A DNA stretch of 64,000 nt. It comes from Candidatus Gallionella acididurans. GTDB lineage: Bacteria; Pseudomonadota; Gammaproteobacteria; Burkholderiales; Gallionellaceae. The notes under the pieces are model-generated. The model saw only the letters and a list, made by a program, of their open reading frames with translations, was not told where the DNA came from and ran no database searches. The position numbers and the translations under genes were made by a program. The DNA lies in contig LSLI01000002.1 of assembly GCA_001577345.1 (NCBI GenBank), positions 1-64,000 of the forward strand, written 5' to 3'. Below, piece by piece: positions 1,628 through 17,473 of the stretch (its first letter is position 1; each line of letters opens with the position of its first letter).

Positions 1628-3268
1628 ATGAATCACAAGAGCAGTCTCACACTCAAGGCGCGTCTTTATATTTTGCTCGTAAGCATGTTGCTGGGGCTCC
1701 TATTGCTTGGCGGGTATTCTGTGTTCAATTTGCGTTCGCACATCATGGAAGAAAAGAAGCAGGCACTCCAGGCCCTGGTGGATGCTGGAATGGGGGTCAT
1801 CCAGCAACAATATGATCTGTTCAAGGCAGGCAAACTCACGGAAGGGGAGGCACAGCGCCTCGCCAAGGACAACCTGCGCAAGAGCAGATACAACAGCGGT
1901 GCGGATTATTTCTTCATCTACGATATGAATGGCGTCAATATCATGCATGCCGCGAAACCGGATCGAGAAGGCCAGGATTTCCTTGATTCAAAGGATCCAA
2001 CCGGCAAGTACTTCTACAAGGAATGGATAGAGCTGCTTAAAAAGAACGACAGCGCTTACATGGACTTCATGTTCCCCAAGGCCGGCTCCAACGATCCGAT
2101 TCCAAAGGTGGCCTACGCCAAGGTGTTCCAGCCCTGGGGCTGGTGGCTTGCGACAGGCGTGTATATCGAGGATGTGGATGCCGATTTCAGGCAGGCGGCG
2201 CTGAGGTCCATCCTGTTCCTCGGGGTGATCGCGGTCATCCTCGGCACGTTGGGCTGGACGATCAACCGCAGTGTGCAACGCCAGATCGGCGGGGAGCCCG
2301 CCGTGGCCGCGGAACAGGCGGAAGGATTCGCCAGCGGCGACCTGACGCGGCGCATCGTTTCTTCCAGCGACCAGCCTGGCAACCTGCTGGCGACCCTGGG
2401 GACGATGCAGGACAGGTTGGCCGGCATCGTGCGCAGCATACTCGCCAGCACCGAAGTACTGGCCAAAGAATCCAAAGAATTGTCGGTGGCGGCCAACGAG
2501 ATCAGTCTGGCCACGCGCAACCAGGCCGAGTCCAGCGCCGCGACGGCTGCGGCAATCGAAGAGCTCACCGTCAGTATCAACGAAGTGTCGGAGATCGCCA
2601 TGACGACGGAAGTCAACTCGCGCGAGACGGCCGATCTGGCCGGCAGAGGAGGCGATGTCGTACGTCAGGCCGCGAACAAGATTGAGCATATCGCAGCCTC
2701 CGTTAAGGATTCCACCGGGCGTATCCAGTCCTTGGTCGACCGCTCACAGGAGATCGGGAAGATCACCCAGGTCATCAAGGAGATTGCCGATCAGACCAAC
2801 CTGCTGGCCTTGAATGCGGCTATCGAAGCTGCGCGGGCTGGCGAGCAGGGCCGGGGTTTTGCGGTGGTTGCGGACGAGGTGAGGAAGCTGGCGGAGCGGA
2901 CGTCACAGGCGACGGCCGAGATCTCCAAGATGGTCGATGCCATCCAGACGGATACCCAGAAGACGGTGGTTGCGATGGAAAGTGCTACACCGCTGGTCAA
3001 ACAGGGCCAGGAGCTGGCCCTGCAGGCGACCGGTTTGCTCGACGATATCCAGCGTCAGGCGACCGACTCGCTGTCCAAGGCGCGGGAGGTTGCGATTGCC
3101 ACCAAGGCACAGGCGGTGACGGCTAACGAGATCGCCGGCCATGTTGAGAGCATCTCCACAATGACCGAGCAGACCAATGCCGCCACCCAAAGCAACGCGG
3201 CGGCGGCGGATCAGTTGAATATGTTGGCCGGGAAGCTGAAGAAGGATATGGATTACTTCAAGGTTTGA
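1628..3268 (+). CDS. Methyl-accepting chemotaxis protein with periplasmic Cache sensor
   Basis: This 546-residue inner-membrane chemoreceptor has TM1 at about 12-34, a single Cache (sCache_2-like) periplasmic sensor at about 40-185, with motifs such as YFFIYDMNG and [10 protein letters not shown], then TM2 at about 192-212. A HAMP segment follows, then a cytoplasmic signalling domain with the conserved tip ([20 protein letters not shown] near residue 400). It ends DYFKV, so it has no CheR/CheB docking pentapeptide. The ligand is unknown; related Cache domains bind small organic acids. The start follows AAGGA. A candidate FliA promoter lies upstream at 1450-1476. Confidence 0.93.
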
Positions 3269-3391
3269 ATCCACAATGATCAGGCGAGCGAAATATCTCG
3301 ACTATCTTTGCGCTTATGGGTTAAATGTAATCTGAGTTTGACAATTTCGTGACCGAAACTTTGAACCCGCTAATTTCTTCGAACTCCCAAT

Positions 3392-3556
3392 GTGGTCGAA
3401 CAGCATCTCGTGGGTCTGGAGCAGATAGGCACGCAGGAAGAATGCTCGCCTGTGACTTAACTTGAATGTGCGATCTGCAACCTGGTATGCTCGCCCGCAA
3501 TGACCGCCCAGCCTTCGTTCCAATCAAACTGGAATGCTTCGCCGGAGGCGCAGGTG
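3392..3556 (-). pseudogene. Decayed fragment of an IS21-family transposase (istA)
   Basis: Reading the minus strand, one frame gives EAFQFDWNEGWAVIAGEH followed by TRLQIAHSS and a stop. A one-base shift then continues FKLSHRRAFFLRAYLLQ and THEMLFDH. Joined, these match the catalytic-core region of IS21-type IstA, where EAFQFDW...VIAG...VAH...SR.FFLRAY..QTHEM.FDAH is typical. Only about 55 codons survive. No IstB or terminal repeats are visible. It occupies most of the 3269-3614 gap, so a former IS21 insertion left this scar. Identification rests on motif memory, not on a search. Confidence 0.7.
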
Positions 3557-3614
3557 ACTGCGTGTGAATTATACTTATGCGATACGATTTATTGCAAAAC
3601 GGATTAACTGTGTT

Positions 3615-5563: not shown

Positions 5564-6202
5564 ATGACCAGAATCCTCGTAGTAGATGACCATGCTTTAA
5601 TCCGCAAAGGATTAAAATTAATTCTCGACGAAACTCTTGACCTCCAGGTCACCGGAGAAGCCGAGAGTGGCGTGCAGGCCATCAGTATGGCGCGCGAACA
5701 GCGATATGACTTGATCTTGCTTGATATCTCCTTGCCGGACAAACATGGTATCGATGTTCTCAAACAGCTCAAATTGGATCATCCTGATATCAGGGTCATC
5801 ATGCTCAGCATGCATCCGGAAGATCATTACGGAGTGCGCTCGCTGAAAGCGGGCGCACTGGGCTACCTCAATAAACAGAGTGCACCCGATCAACTTGTCG
5901 ATGCGATTCGCCAAGTTCTAAGTGGCCAAAAATACATCAGCAAAAGCATGGCTGAACAATTACTCAATAGCCTTATCGGTGAATCTCGAGAACTGCTACA
6001 CCAGACCCTGTCCAATCGCGAGTATCAAACACTCTGCCTTATTTCTTCAGGCAGGACTCTCTCGGAAATCGCTGATTCAATGACTCTAAGCCCCAAAACA
6101 GTTAGTGTCTACCGTACACGAATGCTGGAAAAAATGGGTTTCAAGAACAATGCTGAGGCAATTCACTATGCGATCACCCATCATTTAGTGGAAACGTCCT
6201 GA
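5564..6202 (+). CDS. NarL/FixJ-family response regulator, orphan
   Basis: This 212-residue two-component regulator has a receiver domain (1-120) with acidic pair D8/D9, phospho-acceptor D54 in LILLDISLP, Ser in VIMLSMH and Lys in YLNKQ. A LuxR-type helix-turn-helix follows at about 145-205 (LSNREYQTL, SPKTVSVYRTRMLEKM). All phosphorylation residues are present, so it should be switchable. No histidine kinase is adjacent; the partner must be elsewhere. Targets are unknown. The direct repeat upstream could be an autoregulatory site. Confidence 0.92.
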   Translation: MTRILVVDDHALIRKGLKLILDETLDLQVTGEAESGVQAISMAREQRYDLILLDISLPDKHGIDVLKQLKLDHPDIRVIMLSMHPEDHYGVRSLKAGALGYLNKQSAPDQLVDAIRQVLSGQKYISKSMAEQLLNSLIGESRELLHQTLSNREYQTLCLISSGRTLSEIADSMTLSPKTVSVYRTRMLEKMGFKNNAEAIHYAITHHLVETS

Positions 6203-6281: not shown

Positions 6282-8078
6282 ATGTCCCGAGTCATGAGCA
6301 ACCAATTTACCAATCCGTCAGAAATCGCCCGCGAAACCTTAAAGGCGCTGGCGTTACGCAAGACTCCCCCTACGCCGGCCAACTACGGCAAGATCTACGC
6401 CGAGATCAGCGGTGTCGCCGAGGAAGAAAATGATGATGCCCAGCAGGTGCTGCGCAGCATTGCCGATTTGTTGCACAAGCAAACGGGCAAATCTGCGGCA
6501 GCAGGTCATCAACTGAAAAAATCGCTGGCAGCCAAAGATTGGCAGAACTATCTCGCAGAATTGGAAAAGCTCCTGCCTCTCTCCAAGGAAGGCGGCGCCC
6601 TCCCCCCTTCCTGGTCGGAACTGATACGCGACCTGCTGCGACAACTGGAAACGCCGCACAAAGGCCTGACCATCACCCGCAAGAAAGAAGGCTTGGAAAC
6701 GGTGCTGAACCGCTTCGCCGGCAATCCTGAGAACCTGTTCGAAAAACTCAACGGTTTGGTGCGCTCATGGACAGTGACACCATCGTCCTCTTCCGGCACG
6801 ACCGAGCCGTTGGCTGATACCCCTCCTGTTGCCGCCGGCGCAAGTACGCCTGCGACCAGTTCAACGCACTCATCTACCACCGGTGTAGGGATGGACTCCC
6901 AACTGCGCGAATTGCTCGCACAAACGTTGGAAAGCATCCTCATCACCCAGCCTGAATTCAGTGCCGAGGTGAATTCATTCGCACAGCAGATACGCGCGGC
7001 AACCGACTATGATCAGATCACCAGTCTGGCCAAACAGCTGCGCCAGTTTTGGATCAAAATGGAATTGCGAGGCGGAGACAAAGTCAAAATACAGGAAGGC
7101 TTGGTTCGCCTGTTGCGGTTGCTGGTCGAGAACGTGGGTGAACTGGTCGAGGATGAAGAGTGGCTGCACGGACAGATTGCCACGCTGCAGGGAATCGTAG
7201 CCAATCCGATTGACAAGCGCATCATCGCTGATGCCGAGCGCAGCCTGCGCGATGCCATCATCAAGCAGAGCCTGCTTAAACAGAGCCTGACAGATGCAAA
7301 AATCACGCTCAAGAGCCTGATGACCACCTTCATTGATCGTCTGGGTGAATTGACCAAGAGCACTGGCGATTATCATCACAAGATCGAAAGTTACAGCCAG
7401 AAGATCGGCAAGACCAACAACATCACCGAACTCAGCCATCTGCTTGATGACATCATGCAGGACACTCGCATCATCCAGGCCAGCGCGTTGCGCTCCCACG
7501 AAGAACTGCTCACCACGCGCAAGCAGGTCCAGGAATCTGAAGACAAGATCAGGAAACTGGAACAGGAGCTGGAACAGGTCAGCGAACTGGTATACGAAGA
7601 CCAGCTCACCGGCACACTCAACCGTCGCGGACTGGACGAGGCCTTCGCACGCGAGGCCACGCGCGCGGACCGGGGCGAAGCACCGCTTTGCGTCGCGTTG
7701 CTCGACATAGACAACTTCAAGCGCCTGAACGACACTTTGGGCCATCAAGCAGGAGACCACGCGCTGATCCACCTGAGCAGCGTGATCAAGGAGACATTAC
7801 GCCCCAGCGATTCAGTCGCGCGTTACGGCGGCGAGGAGTTCGTCATCATTCTGCCAGATACCGACATCGCGAACGCTGAATTCATCATCACTCGCCTGCA
7901 ACGCGAACTCACCAAGAAGTTCTTCCTGCACGAGAACGACCGCATCCTGATCACCTTCAGTGCCGGCATTACATTACGGGCCCCCCAAGAAGACCAGGAA
8001 AATGTTCTGGGACGTGCCGACAAGGCGATGTATCAGGCAAAAAAAGTCGGCAAGAACCAGGTTATGGTCGCTCGATAG
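6282..8078 (+). CDS. Diguanylate cyclase with GGDEF domain
   Basis: In this 598-residue protein, residues 1-430 are largely helical with no clear membrane segment, a Ser/Thr/Pro-rich linker lies near 170-200, and a coiled coil precedes the catalytic domain. The C-terminal GGDEF domain (about 435-598) has the active-site form RYGGEEF, with RPSD five residues earlier, the RxxD inhibitory I-site. It should make c-di-GMP and be product-inhibited. It lies close to the motility genes, including the c-di-GMP receptor YcgR. An alternative start at 6294 would remove four residues. Confidence 0.92.
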   Translation: MSRVMSNQFTNPSEIARETLKALALRKTPPTPANYGKIYAEISGVAEEENDDAQQVLRSIADLLHKQTGKSAAAGHQLKKSLAAKDWQNYLAELEKLLPLSKEGGALPPSWSELIRDLLRQLETPHKGLTITRKKEGLETVLNRFAGNPENLFEKLNGLVRSWTVTPSSSSGTTEPLADTPPVAAGASTPATSSTHSSTTGVGMDSQLRELLAQTLESILITQPEFSAEVNSFAQQIRAATDYDQITSLAKQLRQFWIKMELRGGDKVKIQEGLVRLLRLLVENVGELVEDEEWLHGQIATLQGIVANPIDKRIIADAERSLRDAIIKQSLLKQSLTDAKITLKSLMTTFIDRLGELTKSTGDYHHKIESYSQKIGKTNNITELSHLLDDIMQDTRIIQASALRSHEELLTTRKQVQESEDKIRKLEQELEQVSELVYEDQLTGTLNRRGLDEAFAREATRADRGEAPLCVALLDIDNFKRLNDTLGHQAGDHALIHLSSVIKETLRPSDSVARYGGEEFVIILPDTDIANAEFIITRLQRELTKKFFLHENDRILITFSAGITLRAPQEDQENVLGRADKAMYQAKKVGKNQVMVAR

Positions 8079-8225: not shown

Positions 8226-11200
8226 ATGAAAAACCTGACCCAGCTCAACGATTTTAATTTTCTGGTGAACGGGCGCAACGGACGGTTCCTGGCCAATCGC
8301 TACGACTCCTATCTGGGATACGCGCTCATCCAGTATGGGGAGTGTTGTGAGATAGAGGACAGGTTCCTATCTTCATTAGTCCTGCCGGGAGATGTGGTCG
8401 TTGAGGTGGGTGCCAATATTGGTGTGCATACCATCTCATTGGCAAAAAAGGTCGGGCCCCACGGCATGGTCATCGCGGTCGAAGCGCAACCTGTCATTGC
8501 GCAATATCTCTGTGCCAACATCTCGCTCAATGGCTTGTTCAATGTGGTCACGCACAACTGCGGGTGTGGTGCGAGACACGAGACGATGAGCATTCCTGTT
8601 GTGGATTATGCAGCACCGCAGATGCAGAACTTCGGCGAGGTGTCATTGGAGAAGCATGATGCGCGCGGGGTGTCTGTCAACGTGATGCCGCTTGATGAAT
8701 TGATAGCGGGTCTGCCGAAAGTTGATCTGATCAAGCTCGATGTTGAGGGCATGGAAGGCGAAGTATTGCAGGGAGCGATGAGAACTATCCAGCAACATCG
8801 ACCCTGGATATATCTGGAAAACGACAGAGTTGAAAATAGTCAGGCACTGATCGAGCAAGTCATGGCACTCGACTACCGATTGTGGTGGCACATTCCGTCG
8901 CTGTTTAATCCGGATAATTATTTCGGGGTAACAAAAAACGAGTACGGCAATGTCGCGTCGTTCAACATGCTATGCATTCCGCGTGAAGAGGGTAAGCAGG
9001 TTAATGGCCTGTCGGAGATCACCGATTCGACCCACCACCCGCTGAAAAAAATGCCGGCCAGTGCATCATCCCAACGACCTGTATCCGAAAAGACCGATCC
9101 GGACACCGCACACGGGGAGCTCGAAGCAGCAGTGAAACTTTGCCGTGATATTTTGGCAATGCAGCCGAGCAACCCTGAAGCCAATCACAGCATGGGCGAG
9201 ATGGCCGTCCATGCCGGACAGGCTGCGGCCGCGCTACCGTACCTCGTGACTGCACTGGCTGCCGACCCGGCGAACCGGAAATATTGGCTGGATTACATCG
9301 ATGCCCTGATACAGGCAGATCAACCGGAAGAAGCACGGGAGCAACTCTGCTTTGCACGGCAGCATGGACTACAAGGGGAAGAAGTTGAGGCATTGGCAAG
9401 CCGCGTGATTGGCCAACCTGTCGATGCCGTTAGCACGACCCTGCCCCCGCGTTTAAGCTGCCCCGTTTGCAATGGTATATGCTCGATACTCGATGTCGTG
9501 GACTTCAATAAATCCTGCGAGGAGGCCCGTGGCAAGTTCCTCAGCCCGGCAGGCATACCGATTACCTATGTGCGATGCAACAACTGCTATTTTTGTTTCG
9601 CCCCGGAGATTTCGAATTGGCCGATCGAAGAGTTCGAGCGCAGGATATACAACAATGAATATGTCTTGGTGGACCCGGACTACATCGAGGACAGACCCAA
9701 AGCGAGTGCACAAAGTCTGATCGCGATGTTTGGCGAACGCACCCGTGCGATCAGACACCTGGACTACGGTGGCGGGAGCGGCCTTCTGTCAAGGTTGCTG
9801 AGTGAAGCTGGCTGGCAGTCGATTTCCTATGATCCTTTTGTGGACAGAGACACCGACATCCGCCAGCTTGGCAACTTCGACCTGATCACTGTGTTTGAGG
9901 TGTTTGAACACGTGCCTGAGGTTCACACACTCATGTCGAACTTACGCTCCCTGCTCTCCCCCAATGGCATCATTTTATTTTCGACGCTGCTGTCTGACGG
10001 GAACATTCATCCCAAGCAAAAGCTAAGTTGGTGGTACGCCTCTCCTCGTAATGGGCATATCAGTTTGTTTTCGAGGAAGAGTCTTTCCATCCTCGCCCAA
10101 CAGAACGAATTTTCTTTTGGCAGCTTCTCGGCAGGATTTCATTATTTCTGTACCAATGTGCCGGGTTGGGCAGCTCACCTTATTCAAAAAAGCACTATCT
10201 CAATCGAACACGTGCAGATTCAAGCAGGGTTGCCGGCTGCGCCGGCAAAAAAAAACCATAAAAACCAGAACGACCCGGGCAAGCCGGGCAACATCAAAGC
10301 TCACAAGTGGGCAAAGCCCGGTGCGCAGGAGATGAACAAACTGGTGTCCCTGTTTAATCAGGGACAATTCAGCGCAGCCGAATCAATGGCCAAGACGATG
10401 ACGATGCGTTTCCCCTTGCACGGATTCGGCTGGAAGATGCTGGGAGCAGTGCTCAACAAACTTGGGCAGATCGAAGCAGCGCTCCACTGCATGAAAAAGG
10501 CGACCACATTGTTGCCGCATGACGCGGAAGCGCATAACAACCTCGGCTCAACACTGATGCGCGATGGACAAATGGCAGAAGCCGAAGCGAGCTGTCGGCG
10601 CGCGCTCAAAAGCAACCCCAATTACCTGCAAGCACATAACCTGCTGGGCGTTCTGCTGATGGACACAGGTCGGCAGGACGAAGCGGAAGCCAGTTATCAT
10701 CGTGCCTTGCAAATCGACCCTGATTACGCGGAAGCGAATAACAATTACAGTGTTCTGTTGATGCATGCCGGTCGACTCGACGAGGCAGAATTCCGCTGCC
10801 GCAGAACATTACAGATAGATCCTGATTTTATCTGGGCGTATAGCAATTTAGGCATCATTCTCATGGAGCAGGGGCACCTGGAAGAAGCCGAAGCCAGTTG
10901 CCGATGCGCACTGGAACGTGATGAACACCCGCCCGAAGTTGACTACAACCTGGGCTTGATACTCCTCGCACAAGGAAGTTATGTACGCGCTTGGCCGCAT
11001 TACGAGTCACGTTACGATCCGCGCCTCAAAAAACCCATCAGCAAGATGCCGAATATCTCTTGTCCCCAATGGCAAGGAGAATCCTTGCTGGGAAAATCGC
11101 TGGTGATCTGGACAGAGCAAGGCTTTGGCGACCACATCCAGTTCGTTCGCTATGCCCCGTTGCTCAAAGCGCGCGGTGTCTCCCGCCTGACCTTGCTTTG

Positions 11201-14120
11201 TCCCGCGCCCCTCAAAGCACTATTCGAAACTGTGCCGGGAGTGGATGACATCATCACAGACTTATCCGGAGTCGGCAGCTATGACTACTGGTCCTTCCCG
11301 TTAAGCCTGCCCTTGTATTTCGATACCACACTGGACACGATACCGGGTACAGAGCCTTACCTTTACGCTTCGCCTGCACGCCTCGATAAATGGCGCGACC
11401 GGTTGCCAGCAAGCACCTGCAAAGTGGGATTGGTCTGGAAAGGAAGTGCGGAACACAAGCACGATGCCCACCGGTCGCTATCCGGGCTGCACACCCTGGC
11501 ACCGCTCTGGTCGGTATCAGGTGTATCGTTCATCAGCTTACAGAAGGGACAAGGGGAAGAAGAGGCGAACAGTCCGCCTATCGAGCGACCCATCCTCGCG
11601 TTGGGTTCGGAGGTCAGCGACTTCGCCGATACCGCAGCCATCATCGAACAACTGGATCTCGTGATCTGCGTCGATACTTCCGTCGCGCATCTGGCAGGGG
11701 CATTGGGTAAACCCTGCTGGGTACTGCTCCCCGCCAACACGACCGACTGGCGCTGGCTGCGTGAACGCGATGACAGCCCCTGGTATCCCTCGTTGCGCCT
11801 GTTCCGGCAGAAAACACAAGGGGATTGGCAAACCGTGATCGCAAATGTGACAGAAGCATTGCGTGCGTTCAAGTCAGATTCGATGAAGACTGCTTCCGAT
11901 CACAACGCAAAAAACACACTGCCAGCCGAGGCCACACAACGGCCCGCTGCCGCAAAGATCGAACCGAATGTCGCGCACGGTGAGCTCGAGGAGGCAGTAA
12001 GGCTGTGCCGTGCCATTCTGGAAATGCAGCCGAATAACCCTGAAGCAAATCACAGCATGGGCGAGATGGCCGTCCATGAGGGACAGGCTGCGGCCGCGCT
12101 ACCATACTTCGAGACCGCACTGGCTGCCGATCCGGCGAACCGGAAATACTGGCTGGATTACATCGATGCCTTGATGCAGTCAGGGCAGCGGGAGGAAGCA
12201 CAGAAGCAACTTGCCTTTGCCAGGCAACATGGATTGCAAGGAGCAGAGATTGATGCATTAGCCTGTCGATTGGGTGTGGAACAACCCAATTCAAAAGACA
12301 CACATCCCACACTGAATAAACCGCTAAAACACAGTGCTAACAAGCAGAAAACTCCTGGCCAACCAGAGATCGATGCTCTGCTCGACCGGTTCAACAACGG
12401 GAAATTCACCGAGGTCGTCATGCTTGCCCGGCAAATGACGGAGCGTTATCCCAGGCACGGATTCGGCTGGAAAGGACTGGGATTGGCCTTACAAAAACTG
12501 GGACGTAATGAGGATGCCCTATTGGCCATGCAAGAGTCGATCACACTCTTACCGGACGATGCCGAAGCCTATAACAACCTGGGCAACACGCTCAGTTATT
12601 TGGGGCGGTCGGACGAATCGGAAAAGATATTTAGACGCGCGTTACAGCTCAAACCGGATTACGTTGAGGCACACATCAATCTGGGGGTGACCCTTTACGA
12701 CCTTGATCGTACCAATGAGGCTGAAGTGAGTTATCGGCGGGCACTGCAACTCAACCCGAATCATGCCGAGGCGCATTACAATCTGGGCAACAATCTCCAG
12801 CATATGAGGCGACTGGAAGAGGCTGTGGCGAGCTATCGACGGGCCTTGCAGCTCAGGCCAGAGCATACTGAGGCGCATTACAATCTGGGTGCGACCCTCT
12901 ACGACCTGTCTCGACTGGACGAGGCGGAGAAAAGTTACCACCACGCCTTGCGGCTCAAGCCTGACTATGCCGAAGCATTGAATAACCTTGGTGTCACACT
13001 CATGAAGATGGGGCGCGTAGACGAAGCGGAAGCCGCGTACAGACACACCCTTCAGCGCAAACCTGATTACCTTGAGGCACTGAACAACTTGGGTTTGACG
13101 CTCATTAATGCAGGCAAACTCGACGAGGCCGAAAGCAACTTCCGTCACGCGCAATCACTCAATCAGGGTTTCGCCGAAGCGCATTACAATCTGGGTCTGC
13201 TGCTCCTGAGTCAAGGTCGATATGCGGAAGGATGGCCGTATTGCGAACAGCGGTACAACCCGAGCATCAAAAAGTCCACGTTTAAGCTCCCAAGTCTCCC
13301 CTGTCCCCAATGGAAAGGCGAATCCTTGCTGGGAAAATCGCTGGTGATCTGGACAGAACAAGGCTTTGGCGACCACATCCAGTTCGTTCGCTATGCCCCG
13401 TTGCTCAAAGCGCGCGGTGTCTCCCGCCTGACTTTGCTTTGTCCCGCGCCCCTCAAAGCACTATTCGAAACTGTGCCGGGAGTGGATGACATCATCACAG
13501 ACTTATCCGGAGTCGGCAGCTATGACTACTGGTCCTTCCCGTTAAGCCTGCCCTTGTATTTCGATACCACACTGGACACGATACCGGGTACAGAGCCTTA
13601 CCTTTACGCTTCGCCTGCACGCCTCGATAAATGGCGCGACCGGTTGCCAACAAGCACCTGCAAAGTGGGATTGGTCTGGAAAGGAAGTGCGGAACACAAG
13701 CACGATGCCCACCGGTCGCTATCCGGGCTGCACACCCTGGCACCGCTCTGGTCGGTACCAGGTGTATCGTTCATCAGCTTACAGAAGGGACAAGGGGAAG
13801 AAGAGGCGAACAGTCCGTCTATCGAGCGACCCATCCTCGCGTTGGGTTCGGAGGTCAGCGACTTCGCCGATACCGCAGCCATCATCGAACAACTGGATCT
13901 CGTGATCTGCGTCGATACTTCCGTCGCGCATCTGGCAGGGGCATTGGGTAAACCCTGCTGGGTACTGCTCCCCGCCAACACGACCGACTGGCGCTGGCTG
14001 CGTGAACGCGATGACAGCCCCTGGTATCCCTCGTTGCGCCTGTTCCGGCAGAAAACACAAGGGGATTGGCAAACCGTGATCGCAAAGGTGACAGAAGCGT
14101 TGCGTGCGTTTAACCGCTGA
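8226..14120 (+). CDS. Giant multidomain methyltransferase-TPR-glycosyltransferase protein, candidate flagellin modifier
   Basis: The 1964 residues read as: FkbM-family methyltransferase (about 1-265, motif VEVGANIG); a short TPR-like module A (about 290-393); a zinc-ribbon (CPVC at 412, CNNC near 450) leading into a second SAM methyltransferase (about 490-655, LDYGGGSG); a Lys-rich linker; TPR array 1 (about 700-930); glycosyltransferase 1 (about 946-1214, DTSVAHLAGALGKP, GT9-like); module A' (about 1246-1345); TPR array 2 (about 1380-1680); glycosyltransferase 2 (about 1693-1961). It ends 162 bp before flagellin. TPR-glycosyltransferases beside fliC commonly glycosylate flagellin, and the methyltransferases could methylate the glycan. 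That role is inferred; the domain reading is from motifs. Confidence 0.85.
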   Translation: MKNLTQLNDFNFLVNGRNGRFLANRYDSYLGYALIQYGECCEIEDRFLSSLVLPGDVVVEVGANIGVHTISLAKKVGPHGMVIAVEAQPVIAQYLCANISLNGLFNVVTHNCGCGARHETMSIPVVDYAAPQMQNFGEVSLEKHDARGVSVNVMPLDELIAGLPKVDLIKLDVEGMEGEVLQGAMRTIQQHRPWIYLENDRVENSQALIEQVMALDYRLWWHIPSLFNPDNYFGVTKNEYGNVASFNMLCIPREEGKQVNGLSEITDSTHHPLKKMPASASSQRPVSEKTDPDTAHGELEAAVKLCRDILAMQPSNPEANHSMGEMAVHAGQAAAALPYLVTALAADPANRKYWLDYIDALIQADQPEEAREQLCFARQHGLQGEEVEALASRVIGQPVDAVSTTLPPRLSCPVCNGICSILDVVDFNKSCEEARGKFLSPAGIPITYVRCNNCYFCFAPEISNWPIEEFERRIYNNEYVLVDPDYIEDRPKASAQSLIAMFGERTRAIRHLDYGGGSGLLSRLLSEAGWQSISYDPFVDRDTDIRQLGNFDLITVFEVFEHVPEVHTLMSNLRSLLSPNGIILFSTLLSDGNIHPKQKLSWWYASPRNGHISLFSRKSLSILAQQNEFSFGSFSAGFHYFCTNVPGWAAHLIQKSTISIEHVQIQAGLPAAPAKKNHKNQNDPGKPGNIKAHKWAKPGAQEMNKLVSLFNQGQFSAAESMAKTMTMRFPLHGFGWKMLGAVLNKLGQIEAALHCMKKATTLLPHDAEAHNNLGSTLMRDGQMAEAEASCRRALKSNPNYLQAHNLLGVLLMDTGRQDEAEASYHRALQIDPDYAEANNNYSVLLMHAGRLDEAEFRCRRTLQIDPDFIWAYSNLGIILMEQGHLEEAEASCRCALERDEHPPEVDYNLGLILLAQGSYVRAWPHYESRYDPRLKKPISKMPNISCPQWQGESLLGKSLVIWTEQGFGDHIQFVRYAPLLKARGVSRLTLLCPAPLKALFETVPGVDDIITDLSGVGSYDYWSFPLSLPLYFDTTLDTIPGTEPYLYASPARLDKWRDRLPASTCKVGLVWKGSAEHKHDAHRSLSGLHTLAPLWSVSGVSFISLQKGQGEEEANSPPIERPILALGSEVSDFADTAAIIEQLDLVICVDTSVAHLAGALGKPCWVLLPANTTDWRWLRERDDSPWYPSLRLFRQKTQGDWQTVIANVTEALRAFKSDSMKTASDHNAKNTLPAEATQRPAAAKIEPNVAHGELEEAVRLCRAILEMQPNNPEANHSMGEMAVHEGQAAAALPYFETALAADPANRKYWLDYIDALMQSGQREEAQKQLAFARQHGLQGAEIDALACRLGVEQPNSKDTHPTLNKPLKHSANKQKTPGQPEIDALLDRFNNGKFTEVVMLARQMTERYPRHGFGWKGLGLALQKLGRNEDALLAMQESITLLPDDAEAYNNLGNTLSYLGRSDESEKIFRRALQLKPDYVEAHINLGVTLYDLDRTNEAEVSYRRALQLNPNHAEAHYNLGNNLQHMRRLEEAVASYRRALQLRPEHTEAHYNLGATLYDLSRLDEAEKSYHHALRLKPDYAEALNNLGVTLMKMGRVDEAEAAYRHTLQRKPDYLEALNNLGLTLINAGKLDEAESNFRHAQSLNQGFAEAHYNLGLLLLSQGRYAEGWPYCEQRYNPSIKKSTFKLPSLPCPQWKGESLLGKSLVIWTEQGFGDHIQFVRYAPLLKARGVSRLTLLCPAPLKALFETVPGVDDIITDLSGVGSYDYWSFPLSLPLYFDTTLDTIPGTEPYLYASPARLDKWRDRLPTSTCKVGLVWKGSAEHKHDAHRSLSGLHTLAPLWSVPGVSFISLQKGQGEEEANSPSIERPILALGSEVSDFADTAAIIEQLDLVICVDTSVAHLAGALGKPCWVLLPANTTDWRWLRERDDSPWYPSLRLFRQKTQGDWQTVIAKVTEALRAFNR
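11061..11869 (+). repeat. Glycosyltransferase-domain direct repeat, copy 1
   Basis: This 809-bp stretch recurs in frame 2241 bp downstream (13302-14110). By eye I count nine base differences, about 99% identity, of which five change residues (Q/K, A/T, S/P, P/S, N/K). The flanking TPR arrays are far more diverged. Confidence 0.95.
13302..14110 (+). repeat. Glycosyltransferase-domain direct repeat, copy 2
   Basis: This is the second copy of the 809-bp segment at 11061-11869. Identity begins at the Cys-Pro-Gln-Trp motif and ends within the last codons of the gene. The real differences between copies argue against an assembly artefact that simply repeated one read. Confidence 0.95.
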
Positions 14121-14167: not shown

Positions 14168-14194
14168 TAAAGATTTTTGAACTCATACCGATAA
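14168..14194 (+). promoter_or_regulatory. FliA (sigma-28) promoter of fliC
   Basis: TAAA (14168-14171), exactly 15 bases, then ACCGATAA (14187-14194) gives one mismatch to the sigma-28 consensus. It predicts a start of transcription near 14201 and a leader of about 80 bases before the fliC ATG. FliA control of flagellin is standard. Confidence 0.85.
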
Positions 14195-14282: not shown

Positions 14283-14999
14283 ATGGCACAAGTCATCAAC
14301 ACCAACGTTGCAGCCCTGTTCGCCGGTGCCGCACTGAACGTCTCAGCCAATGCACTACGTACCGCCCAAGAGCAGTTGTCTTCAGGCCTGCGCATCAATA
14401 GCGTTGCAGACGACCCTACCGGCCTGGGTATCGCTACTAAATACGATAGCCAAATCAACGGTACCAACATCGCTATCCAGAATGCCAATAACGGCATTTC
14501 AACCGCACAAATCAATGACGGATATGGAGCGCAGATGACTGCCAACCTGCAACGTCTCTATCAAATCGCGGTTCAACTGGGTGGCACAGCTTCCGGTCCC
14601 GAGACTACTGCTCTGCTCGCAGAAAACGCTCGTATCGCTGGATTAACTACTGCTACTGGTGCCGTCGTTGTAAACGGCAGCGGAGGTACCGTGACAGGCG
14701 TAGGCGTGGCAATTGCGGCACCCACTTCCGTTACGGTTGCCGGCATCAGTGCGGACATCACTGCGGTCACCAACTCACGCCAACTCTTCGGTGCTGACAT
14801 CGCGACATTCAATTCTGCTGTTGCTGTTATGCAGACCACTTCGGTCAACTTGTCCGCATCGTACAGCCGTATTATGGATACTGATTATGCGGCAGCCACG
14901 ACGGCGATGACACGAAACAACATCCTGCAACAGGCCGGAACAGCGGTCCTGGCCCAGGCGAACCAGACACCGAATACCGTAATGACTTTGTTACGTTAA
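14283..14999 (+). CDS. fliC: Flagellin, short form
   Basis: At 238 residues this filament subunit is short for the family. The N-terminal D0/D1 helices are clear (INTNVAALFAG, LSSGLRINSVADDPTGLGIA) and the C-terminal D1/D0 ends with ILQQAGTAVLAQANQ and LLR. Only about 70 Gly/Ser/Thr/Val-rich residues separate them, so the outer D2/D3 domains are essentially missing. This Ser/Thr-rich patch is the likely surface and a plausible glycosylation target of the upstream giant protein. The ATG follows AAGGAGAATTATC. Transcription is from the FliA promoter at 14168. Confidence 0.95.
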   Translation: MAQVINTNVAALFAGAALNVSANALRTAQEQLSSGLRINSVADDPTGLGIATKYDSQINGTNIAIQNANNGISTAQINDGYGAQMTANLQRLYQIAVQLGGTASGPETTALLAENARIAGLTTATGAVVVNGSGGTVTGVGVAIAAPTSVTVAGISADITAVTNSRQLFGADIATFNSAVAVMQTTSVNLSASYSRIMDTDYAAATTAMTRNNILQQAGTAVLAQANQTPNTVMTLLR

Positions 15000-15008
15000 G
15001 CAAACTAA

Positions 15009-15044
15009 CGAAGCCCCGATCAGCTTGATTGGGTCGGGGCTTCG
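15009..15044 (+). terminator. Stable hairpin after fliC, partial terminator or mRNA stabiliser
   Basis: CGAAGCCCCGA (15009-15019) pairs with TCGGGGCTTCG (15034-15044), an 11-bp GC-rich stem with a 14-base loop, nine bases after the fliC stop codon. No U-run follows, so it is more likely to stabilise the abundant fliC mRNA or to reduce readthrough than to stop it fully. Confidence 0.6.
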
Positions 15045-15061
15045 AGCAAAGGAGAGGTCAA

Positions 15062-15427
15062 ATGCTCATTCAAGATACCAGCGTCGCCGTTCCAGTCGCG
15101 CCACCAATCCCTGCTATGGGCTATGGTGCGTCAAGTATCGTTCCGAACGTCGCAAGCGCAAGTCCATCGAACAACCTATCGGCTCCTGACCCATCGCCCG
15201 CACAATTAAGCAGTGCCGTTGGTAGCCTGAACCAAGCGATGCAGCAGTCGAATATCAGTCTAGCGTTCAGCGTTGATACCACCACAAAAACCCCCATCGT
15301 AAGTGTGACCGACTCGTCAACCGGGCAGGTGGTCGCGCAGTTTCCCTCAAAAGTCACCTTGGCTATCGCACAAGCGATAGATCAAACCGAAAAACGGCAA
15401 GGTCTGTTATTTAATCAGAAAGCGTAG
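15062..15427 (+). CDS. flaG: FlaG family flagellar protein
   Basis: This 121-residue protein sits between flagellin and the filament cap. The last 70 residues carry the FlaG pattern: LNQAMQQSNISLAFSVD, then VSVTDSSTGQVVAQFPS. The N-terminal half is Pro/Ala/Ser-rich and low in complexity. FlaG proteins influence filament length in other bacteria; the exact mechanism is uncertain. The ATG at 15062 follows AAAGGAGAGG and is preferred over an upstream in-frame TTG. It is probably cotranscribed from the fliC promoter. Confidence 0.88.
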   Translation: MLIQDTSVAVPVAPPIPAMGYGASSIVPNVASASPSNNLSAPDPSPAQLSSAVGSLNQAMQQSNISLAFSVDTTTKTPIVSVTDSSTGQVVAQFPSKVTLAIAQAIDQTEKRQGLLFNQKA

Positions 15428-15437
15428 GAGACCGAAC

Positions 15438-16874
15438 ATGACAACCACCTCAGTTGCTTCATCATCAGCCCCGGGCACAATTGATGTCCAGTCGCTGGTG
15501 TCACAGTTGATGGCGGTTGCCAAACAGCCTATCACCGCGCTCAACACGCAGATCAGTACTGAGCAGACGCAACTATCCGATTTCGGCACCATCAGTGGAA
15601 TGGTCTCCAGTCTGCAAACCGCAATCACCAACTTGAATATCTCCGCTGTCGTAAATAGCGCCAGCTCATCCAATACCGCAGCCGTCACCGCAACTGCTGC
15701 CAGCAATGCGGTCGCTGGCAGCTATTCCATGAATATAACCGCGCTGGCACAATCGCAAAGCCTGGTCTCTGCTGGACAAGCTAGCAGCAGCACAGCCATC
15801 AGTAACGGAACCGCGACCACGGTCACCTTCGCTTTCGGCACCACCAGTGGCACCACCTTTACCTCCAACGGCAGCGCCACGAAAAGCATCACCATCGATA
15901 GCACCAACAACACTTTGTCGGGCATCGCATTGGCGATCAACTCAGCCAATATCGGCGTGACCGCAACCATCATCAATGACGGCAGTGCCACCGCACCGTA
16001 TCATATAGCCCTGACATCAAATAGTACCGGCGCCAGCAACAGTCTCCAGATCACCACCTCGGGAGGAGATGGCACCATCAACACTCTACTGGCCTACAAT
16101 CCAGCAGGGGCCATGAATATGAGCCAAACCGTTGCGGCGCAAAATGCCAGCTTCACTTTGAATGGCATCGCGATCAGCAGCGCGTCGAATACCGTAACAA
16201 ATGCCGTCCAAGGCGTCACCCTGAGTCTCGCCAGCCTCACTTCATCACCTGCCGTCGTGACAGTTGGGCCGAACACGCAAGGGGTAACTGCCAATATCAC
16301 ATCGTTTGTTACCGCATACAATGCATTATGGAACGAACTGCAGACCGTCTCTTCCTATGGCACAGCCTCTACGACCGGCGGGGCCACCACCGGGGCGGGA
16401 GACTTGCCCGGCAACAGCACTGTGCGCATGATGATGAATCAAATGCAGAGCGTCCTGGACACCGCGACCACCCCGGCGGCGGGGGGCAGTCTGAGCTATT
16501 TGGCTCAAATCGGCGTTGCTTTGCAAACCGATGGAACGCTGTCAGTCGATAGCGCGACATTAAGCAATGCGCTGACCAATAACTTTAGCGATGTCAGTAA
16601 TCTGCTCACTTCGGCAACCGGTGTCGGCACCAACATGAACACTTGGGCGAATTCGGTTCTTGCGCCGGGTAATGGATTGATACCCAGCGCGACTACTGCG
16701 ATCAATTCCACCATTACCGACCAGCAAAATAAGATCACCCAAATGACCGCACAAATGACCGTACTGCAAGCCCAATATCTACAGCAATACACCAATCTGA
16801 ATATGCTGCTGACCAGCATGAACAGCACCAGCAGCTACCTGACACAACAATTTTCAAGTTCTAATCTTAGGTAG
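15438..16874 (+). CDS. fliD: Filament cap protein FliD (HAP2)
   Basis: The 478-residue secreted protein forms the cap at the filament tip and guides flagellin folding. The N-terminal coiled region GTIDVQSLVSQLMAVAKQPI and the C-terminal helices (ITDQQNKITQMTAQM, LQAQYLQQYTNLNML) are diagnostic. The centre is very rich in Ser/Thr/Asn/Ala, as is usual for exposed domains. It starts 10 bp after flaG with AGGAG upstream, so it lies in the fliC-flaG-fliD unit. Confidence 0.95.
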   Translation: MTTTSVASSSAPGTIDVQSLVSQLMAVAKQPITALNTQISTEQTQLSDFGTISGMVSSLQTAITNLNISAVVNSASSSNTAAVTATAASNAVAGSYSMNITALAQSQSLVSAGQASSSTAISNGTATTVTFAFGTTSGTTFTSNGSATKSITIDSTNNTLSGIALAINSANIGVTATIINDGSATAPYHIALTSNSTGASNSLQITTSGGDGTINTLLAYNPAGAMNMSQTVAAQNASFTLNGIAISSASNTVTNAVQGVTLSLASLTSSPAVVTVGPNTQGVTANITSFVTAYNALWNELQTVSSYGTASTTGGATTGAGDLPGNSTVRMMMNQMQSVLDTATTPAAGGSLSYLAQIGVALQTDGTLSVDSATLSNALTNNFSDVSNLLTSATGVGTNMNTWANSVLAPGNGLIPSATTAINSTITDQQNKITQMTAQMTVLQAQYLQQYTNLNMLLTSMNSTSSYLTQQFSSSNLR

Positions 16875-17023: not shown

Positions 17024-17473
17024 ATGAACAACTTTGCTGCCATTAGCACCTATACCAAAGTCGGTCTCGAATCTGGTGTGACGGCTGCCGATCCGCACAG
17101 ACTGATCTTGATGTTGTTCGAAGGCGCGCTGAAAGCAATCGGCAATGCAAAAAGCGAAATGCAGCGCAAAGAAATCGCAGCCAAAGGAAAATCTATCTCT
17201 CATGCCATCAGTATCATCGGCGAAGGTTTGGATGCAAGCCTGAACAAGACCGCAGGAGGCACATTGGCACAAGACCTTTCTGCGCTATACGCTTACATGA
17301 TCAGCCGCCTGTTTGATGCCAACTTGAAAAATGACACCGTCACACTGGATGAGGTCACTCGCATGCTGTCCGAATTAAAAGAAGCCTGGTCGGACATCCG
17401 CCCCAACAAGCCGTCCCCGTTGACACCATCCAAACCCGCCCAAAGCGAGCAACTGATCTACGCCCGAGGATAA
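17024..17473 (+). CDS. fliS: Flagellin export chaperone FliS
   Basis: The 149-residue cytoplasmic four-helix chaperone binds the C-terminal helices of flagellin and prevents early polymerisation. Family motifs are TYTKVGLESGVTAADPHRLI and LMLFEGALKAIG near the N terminus. The last 20 residues are Pro/Ser-rich and variable. A 149-bp gap separates it from fliD; I see no sigma-28 site in that gap. fliT-like follows 4 bp later. Confidence 0.95.
   Translation: MNNFAAISTYTKVGLESGVTAADPHRLILMLFEGALKAIGNAKSEMQRKEIAAKGKSISHAISIIGEGLDASLNKTAGGTLAQDLSALYAYMISRLFDANLKNDTVTLDEVTRMLSELKEAWSDIRPNKPSPLTPSKPAQSEQLIYARG

Follow-up and report, generated by a model that had tools for sequence, protein, structure and literature searches.

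The 1964-residue protein encoded immediately upstream of the flagellin gene fliC in Candidatus Gallionella acididurans is most likely (a probability of about 0.7) a cytoplasmic, modular flagellin-modifying multi-enzyme, namely a FlmG/OGT-like glycosyltransferase-methyltransferase with built-in glycan methylation, for which flagellin docking, catalysis, O-linkage, methylation of the glycan and the order of the steps are predicted. In the window, which is the whole 64,000-nt stretch of DNA that was analysed, the modules of this protein were found to follow one another in the order FkbM methyltransferase, A module 1, zinc-ribbon methyltransferase, TPR array, glycosyltransferase (GT), A module 2, TPR array and GT. 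The sequence-only reading had described one open frame with an FkbM domain, a zinc-ribbon methyltransferase, TPRs and two GT9-like domains, and this was borne out by Pfam and NCBIfam searches and by motifs. The features of the gene are as follows.

8226..14120, + strand: fused methyltransferase-glycosyltransferase gene (ATG start, 1964 aa, single open frame, 0 internal stops)
8226..9011, + strand: FkbM methyltransferase domain (residues 1-262)
9096..9419, + strand: A module 1, TPR-type, proposed flagellin-docking unit (residues 291-398; 76% amino acid identity to A module 2; flagellin linkage)
9423..10205, + strand: zinc-ribbon SAM methyltransferase domain (residues 400-660)
10326..11000, + strand: TPR array 1 (residues 701-925; Pfam TPRs)
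11001..11930, + strand: GT9-like glycosyltransferase domain 1 (residues 926-1235; PF01075 and alignment; 93% identical to domain 2)
11115..11834, + strand: recently copied GT core, copy 1
11958..12281, + strand: A module 2 (residues 1245-1352)
12342..13190, + strand: TPR array 2 (residues 1373-1655; Pfam TPRs)
13191..14117, + strand: GT9-like glycosyltransferase domain 2 (residues 1656-1964)
13356..14075, + strand: recently copied GT core, copy 2 (DNA self-comparison)

The lowest GC was at the second codon position in all 19 of the 19 blocks of 300 nt across the frame, and no 5-nt Shine-Dalgarno core was found before its internal in-frame ATG or GTG codons. The FkbM domain was recognized by Pfam (PF05050 at residues 60-204, 74.4 bits against a cut-off of 22.7) and by NCBIfam (fkbM_fam, TIGR01444, 97.5 bits against 37.7), and carries the SAM motif EVGANIG at residue 60. 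The second methyltransferase matched Methyltransf_23 (PF13489 at 486-629, 101 bits against a cut-off of 27); with the SAM motif DYGGGSG at 513 and two Cys pairs, CPVC at 412 and CNNC at 451, both N-terminal to Methyltransf_23, it has the attributes of a zinc-ribbon class I SAM methyltransferase, and it is 68% identical to a 279-aa open frame on contig C24 of the same genome. The two TPR arrays reported earlier are present and were refined into two A modules, at residues 291-398 and 1245-1352, and two longer arrays.

The two GT9-like domains are near-identical copies, both of which carry the motifs EQGFGD, DTSVAHLAGAL and DWRW. Over the whole protein, PF01075 (GT9) scored 46.6 bits against a cut-off of 22, in two partial stretches of which the best covers only 32 residues. 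A fold search was chosen because the GT profile gave only marginal matches to PDB sequences (best E 0.015). The GT domain was modelled with AlphaFold from 40 sequences, 2 from the window and 38 homologues from viral contigs, with a mean pLDDT of 91.2 and a pTM of 0.92. Eight of the ten Foldseek matches at E <= 0.001 were WaaF, WaaC or a GT9 enzyme (WaaF 1psw, 3.1e-8; the Veillonella GT9 enzyme 3tov, 6.0e-8; WaaC, 6.7e-5 and weaker), and the remaining two were photosynthetic supercomplex chains from plants; TibC, a protein heptosyltransferase, matched at 1.3e-3 and weaker. By its model, the GT is of the GT-B/GT9 fold, closest to heptosyltransferases, and the earlier assignment as GT9-like thus holds at the level of fold. 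The NCBIfam equivalogs for heptosyltransferase I, heptosyltransferase III and RfaQ were not reached (19-23 bits for the GT domain against cut-offs of 170-467). The OGT/GT41-type domain PF13844 was absent among the 25 of 32 Pfam families listed, and a search of the genome with PF13844 gave a match on contig C3 only and none in the 1964-aa gene. Flagellin glycosylation by Maf was rejected as a candidate, since the genome gave no match to PF01973; the control genomes that gave matches were archaeal only.

The second half of the protein (residues 1241-1964) was modelled with a mean pLDDT of 88.8 and a pTM of 0.72, as A module 2 with three helix pairs, a low-confidence, flexible linker, and nine helix pairs of TPR array 2 running into the GT. 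The best Foldseek matches of this model were SPINDLY and OGT, with low TM-scores among the top ten (0.31-0.40), and these matches are probably driven by the TPRs.

The stop codon of the gene at 14120 lies 162 bp before the ATG of fliC at 14283, as had been read from the sequence, and the following features surround it.

5564..6202, + strand: LuxR-type response regulator (Pfam), upstream of the slot between GGDEF and fliC genes
6282..8078, + strand: GGDEF protein (Pfam), upstream border of the fliC slot
14168..14194, + strand: sigma-28-like site before fliC, TAAA-N15-ACCGATAA, 11/12 to the consensus
14283..14999, + strand: fliC, short flagellin of 238 aa, the proposed substrate (Pfam Flagellin_N and Flagellin_C)
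15029..15427, + strand: FlaG (PF03646)
15438..16874, + strand: FliD (PF07195, PF02465)
17024-17473: fliS, named from gene order, as were its homologues

The sigma-28-like site between the two genes, one of three on the + strand of the window that score at least 11, suggests that fliC probably has its own promoter. The central part of this flagellin is rich in Ser and Thr, with 17 such residues between positions 102 and 165. Scans for sigma-70 promoters and terminators gave no excess over shuffled sequences (7 versus a mean of 7.2, and 12 versus a mean of 11.9, respectively).

Flagellin loci of relatives were also compared. Among 42 loci with fliC, which were chosen stretches rather than random ones and some of which may end before the GGDEF gene, 22 carry a GGDEF gene upstream of fliC in the same orientation. 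No frame of more than 150 aa was found between GGDEF and fliC in 14 of the 22, which indicates that this slot is usually empty. It was filled in the other eight: with A-module proteins in three (the window, L043 and L055) and with other frames in five (L067, L072, L073, L074 and L077). The L043 and L055 loci contain TPR-GT41 proteins, methyltransferases and other glycan-type genes. More widely, TPR-GT41 proteins were observed at the flagellin loci of other species, and TPR-GT9-like proteins in fewer genomes; in L041 and L044 they directly precede fliC, and in L049 and L057 they are more distant. The DT..HLA motif is lost in the three GT9-like domains that lie nearest to fliC genes other than that of the window (L041, L044 and L049), and kept in L057. 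In one further locus (L040:6693-12013, + strand, genome G021), a TPR-GT41 gene is separated from two short flagellins by genes for a DegT-type aminotransferase, an ATP-grasp protein and a radical SAM/SPASM protein.

Taken singly, the GT9-like, FkbM and zinc-ribbon domains are mostly located away from flagellin genes in the genus. By counts made by eye, 7 of 38 GT9-like matches (5 of 22 genomes) were within 20 kb of fliC, and near fliC only one of 13 FkbM matches and one of nine zinc-ribbon methyltransferase matches was found, in both cases the 1964-aa protein itself. The A module behaves differently and follows flagellin genes in the genus. We searched 76 genomes, using strict single-sequence searches for module assignment, with A module 2 and the start of its TPR array as the query; 6 of 68 matches were dropped as second pieces of A-bearing frames, leaving 41 with the A module, both copies in the 1964-aa protein included, and 21 without it. 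Matches with the A module were within 20 kb of a flagellin gene in 28 of 41 cases (16 of 19 genomes), and matches without it in none of 21 (16 genomes), where flagellin positions were 60 hand-picked matches from which FlgL-like ones (frames of about 400-430 aa with a weaker score) had been left out by eye. Fisher's test gave 5.6e-8, which is not a true probability because the matches cluster within genomes. The 13 A matches not within 20 kb comprised two at about 28 kb and 11 on contigs where no flagellin had been picked; among the latter, three (G004, contig C19) adjoin GGDEF and response-regulator genes.

Across the order the association is less tight. An A match was present in 18 of 250 genomes, the source genome included, and in the 17 others, 12 of 26 A matches (11 of 17 genomes) were within 20 kb of a flagellin gene, after 16 of 36 flagellin-family matches had been excluded by hand as FlgL-like. 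The remaining matches were farther away on the same contig (six, at 29.9 kb to 1.5 Mb) or on contigs without flagellin (eight). The distant ones at 0.3-1.5 Mb were two in G234, one in G299 and two in G278, and G176 has the A module and no flagellin match. At flagellin loci, for which frames of at least 90 aa were annotated and overlaps resolved by length, the partner domains of the A module were GT41, GT9-like and sulfotransferase domains, the GT9-like case being a free-standing A-TPR-GT9-like protein of 681 aa about 5 kb from fliC (L057). From these sequence comparisons, the A module is a putative flagellin-docking unit.

Several other arrangements of A-module and related genes were observed. 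A TPR protein of 700 aa (L060:5744-7846, - strand, genome G081) combines an A module with a Sulfotransfer_3 domain; its frame stops some 350 bp upstream of a flagellin frame of 567 aa, and it is a candidate flagellin sulfation enzyme. In L050 (G062) and L051 (G064), four tandem A-module TPR proteins stand beside one short flagellin and read away from it; in L050, GT41 was present in both of the two proteins checked of the four. Away from fliC, the source genome has a second cluster (C3:35367-41162, L080) with two TPR-GT41 frames and a TPR-GT9-like protein of 488 aa, in which no A match was found at E 1e-10. Larger GT9-like proteins are encoded by G097, including a 4628-aa frame with three GT9-like domains between TPR arrays (L096:4862-18748, + strand) and frames of 1315, 1471 and 1627 aa with one or two such domains. 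In IMG/VR, at least 555 viral-contig stretches, among the 600 listed, also encode relatives of the GT9-like domain (L113-L192), so that contigs classed as viral may commonly carry TPR-GT9-like enzymes.

A fused relative was found when the FkbM-A1 part was used as a query against 399 genomes drawn from the order. In a genome of another family of the order (L210, G345), an 1821-aa protein with the order zinc-ribbon methyltransferase, A module, TPR, GT9-like, TPR and GT41 is encoded 209 bp upstream of a gene for a 203-aa flagellin, which is followed by fliD. Pfam recognized Flagellin_N/C, FliD, Methyltransf_23 and GT41 at this locus; a nearby 184-aa frame holds an FkbM-like remnant by a phmmer match, in which Pfam did not find FkbM. 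The search for the architecture beside fliC in relatives, which had been proposed earlier, recovered a fused version; neither the 76 genomes of the genus nor the 399 from the order showed the exact chain of FkbM, methyltransferase and two GTs a second time. FkbM and GT9-like domains are fused in three further loci (L207, L208 and L212) and FkbM lies beside TPR-GT9-like genes in two (L214 and L088); the fetched stretches of all five showed no flagellin. FkbM and GT9-like enzymes are thus paired in several settings, of which the flagellin version is one.

The genomic context favours flagellin as the target, as suggested earlier, by the linkage of the A module, the L210 locus, and the TPR-GT41 and TPR-GT9-like proteins at other flagellin loci. 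We propose that the A modules, as small TPR domains on flexible linkers, would dock newly made short flagellin; that each TPR superhelix would present it to a GT9-like GT-B domain, which would add a sugar to Ser/Thr or extend a glycan; and that the two fused methyltransferases would methylate those sugars before the flagellin is exported.

Comparable systems have been described. In Caulobacter crescentus, the TPR domain of FlmG is described as binding flagellins and as being required for their modification (PMC7591256). FlmG and the protein described here both have TPR and GT-B domains in one chain, and here these stand beside flagellin; binding is reported for the TPR part of FlmG and predicted here. 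Compared by description, FlmG has 596 aa and one OGT-type GT, in contrast to the two GT9-like domains, two A modules and two methyltransferases here, where an OGT/GT41-type catalytic domain is lacking. In C. difficile, the type B GT2 combines a GT with a methyltransferase domain proposed to methylate the rhamnoses that GT2 adds (PMC5207246). Like GT2, the 1964-aa protein has a GT and a SAM methyltransferase in one chain beside fliC; GT2 is described with a Pfam 00535 GT and one methyltransferase, whereas GT-B/GT9-like domains, two methyltransferases and TPR arms are found here. In enterobacterial flagellin glycosylation islands, most GT41 enzymes are reported to carry methyltransferase domains, and FkbM enzymes occur as a separate family (PMC4875605); these are likewise methyltransferase-GT fusions within flagellin islands, with GT41 in place of GT9-like domains, and the term GT9 is absent from the main text of that article. 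FkbM genes are also listed in flagellin islands of Geobacillus (PMC5109656) and Dickeya (PMC7575072), and for Maf-1, flagellin specificity through a TPR domain has been reported (PMC13317340). TibC is described as glycosylating protein directly with a related GT fold (PMC4358343). By Foldseek, the GT-B/GT9 fold is common to WaaF/WaaC, TibC and the GT domain here, with about 10-15% identity and with the GT here below the listed NCBIfam heptosyltransferase cut-offs; TibC is described as a dodecamer with a beta-barrel and an iron finger (PMC4358343), unlike the protein here. In SPINDLY and O-GlcNAc transferase, as here, a long TPR superhelix leads into a GT-B domain; they differ in GT family, and the TM-scores are low.

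The combination had been called unusual, and this needs qualifying. The exact chain is confined to this genome among those searched, but fusions of GT and methyltransferase beside fliC have been published (PMC5207246, PMC4875605), so the kind of protein is already known, and FkbM-GT9-like fusions are also found where no fliC was seen. Among titles and abstract openings of the papers listed, no flagellin enzyme with FkbM and GT9-like domains in one chain was found. What is new among the papers found is the domain combination and the type of GT for a presumed flagellin role.

An alternative that we consider somewhat unlikely shares flagellin as the target and has the methyltransferases act on flagellin side chains or on free sugar precursors, or has one GT serve only as a scaffold. 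Methylation of flagellin Lys by FliB is described (PMC4875605), and the FkbM and zinc-ribbon relatives are mostly stand-alone genes distant from fliC. However, the repeated fusion or adjacency of FkbM to GT9-like enzymes suggests glycan methylation, and a scaffold role for one GT is opposed by the retention of all three motifs in both copies.

It is less likely still, and on the whole improbable, that the target is another surface molecule (LPS core, exopolysaccharide, pilin or another protein) and that the adjacency to fliC is incidental. In its favour, the GT shares its fold with LPS heptosyltransferases, fusions or pairs of FkbM and GT9-like domains occur at the five loci without a detected flagellin, and few GT9-like matches in the genus are near fliC. 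Against this, the heptosyltransferase cut-offs are far from reached, the A module is linked to fliC, and the fused protein of another family is also directly upstream of a short fliC.

DNA self-comparison showed two duplicated regions within the gene, the GT region (93.8% over 940 nt) and the segment preceding each TPR array (81.6% over 326 nt). At gene positions 2890-3609, the two GT copies differ at only 5 of 720 nt, and to the left of this edge 22-30 differences are found in each of seven 60-nt blocks. Such a sharp edge between the core and the diverged TPR flanks supports that the core was recopied recently between the halves, by what appears to have been gene conversion or an equivalent process. 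The gene may have originated from an A-TPR-GT9-like gene that was tandemly duplicated, with the zinc-ribbon methyltransferase put into the first copy and FkbM added at the front, before the GT core was recopied from one half onto the other. That the fusion is a draft-assembly artefact, in which near-identical GT repeats joined or reordered two genes, is very unlikely: the genome is in 316 contigs and the copies share identical stretches of up to a few hundred nt, but the copies differ in sequence and in flanks and so both exist, the frame is open throughout, the FkbM-A1-methyltransferase part lies outside the GT-core repeat, and the fused 1821-aa relative, which has part of the same module order, comes from an unrelated assembly.

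On a broader and tentative view, which we regard as less likely than not, the flagellin loci of this order would be assembly-line-like, with a portable A docking unit and interchangeable heads (GT41, GT9-like, sulfotransferase and methyltransferases). Fusion, duplication and recopying would build giant chains, and the order of modules would set the glycan on the flagellin of each species. To our knowledge, the way in which cytoplasmic flagellin glycosyltransferases choose their substrates is known for only a few enzymes. If the proposed role is true, an A unit travelling with flagellin genes and bearing various catalytic heads would allow flagellin-modifying enzymes to be recognized in genomes that lack annotation, and might serve to aim enzymes at flagellin. 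The presence of methyl- and glycosyltransferases in one chain also predicts a product that can be checked, a methylated sugar on the short flagellin.
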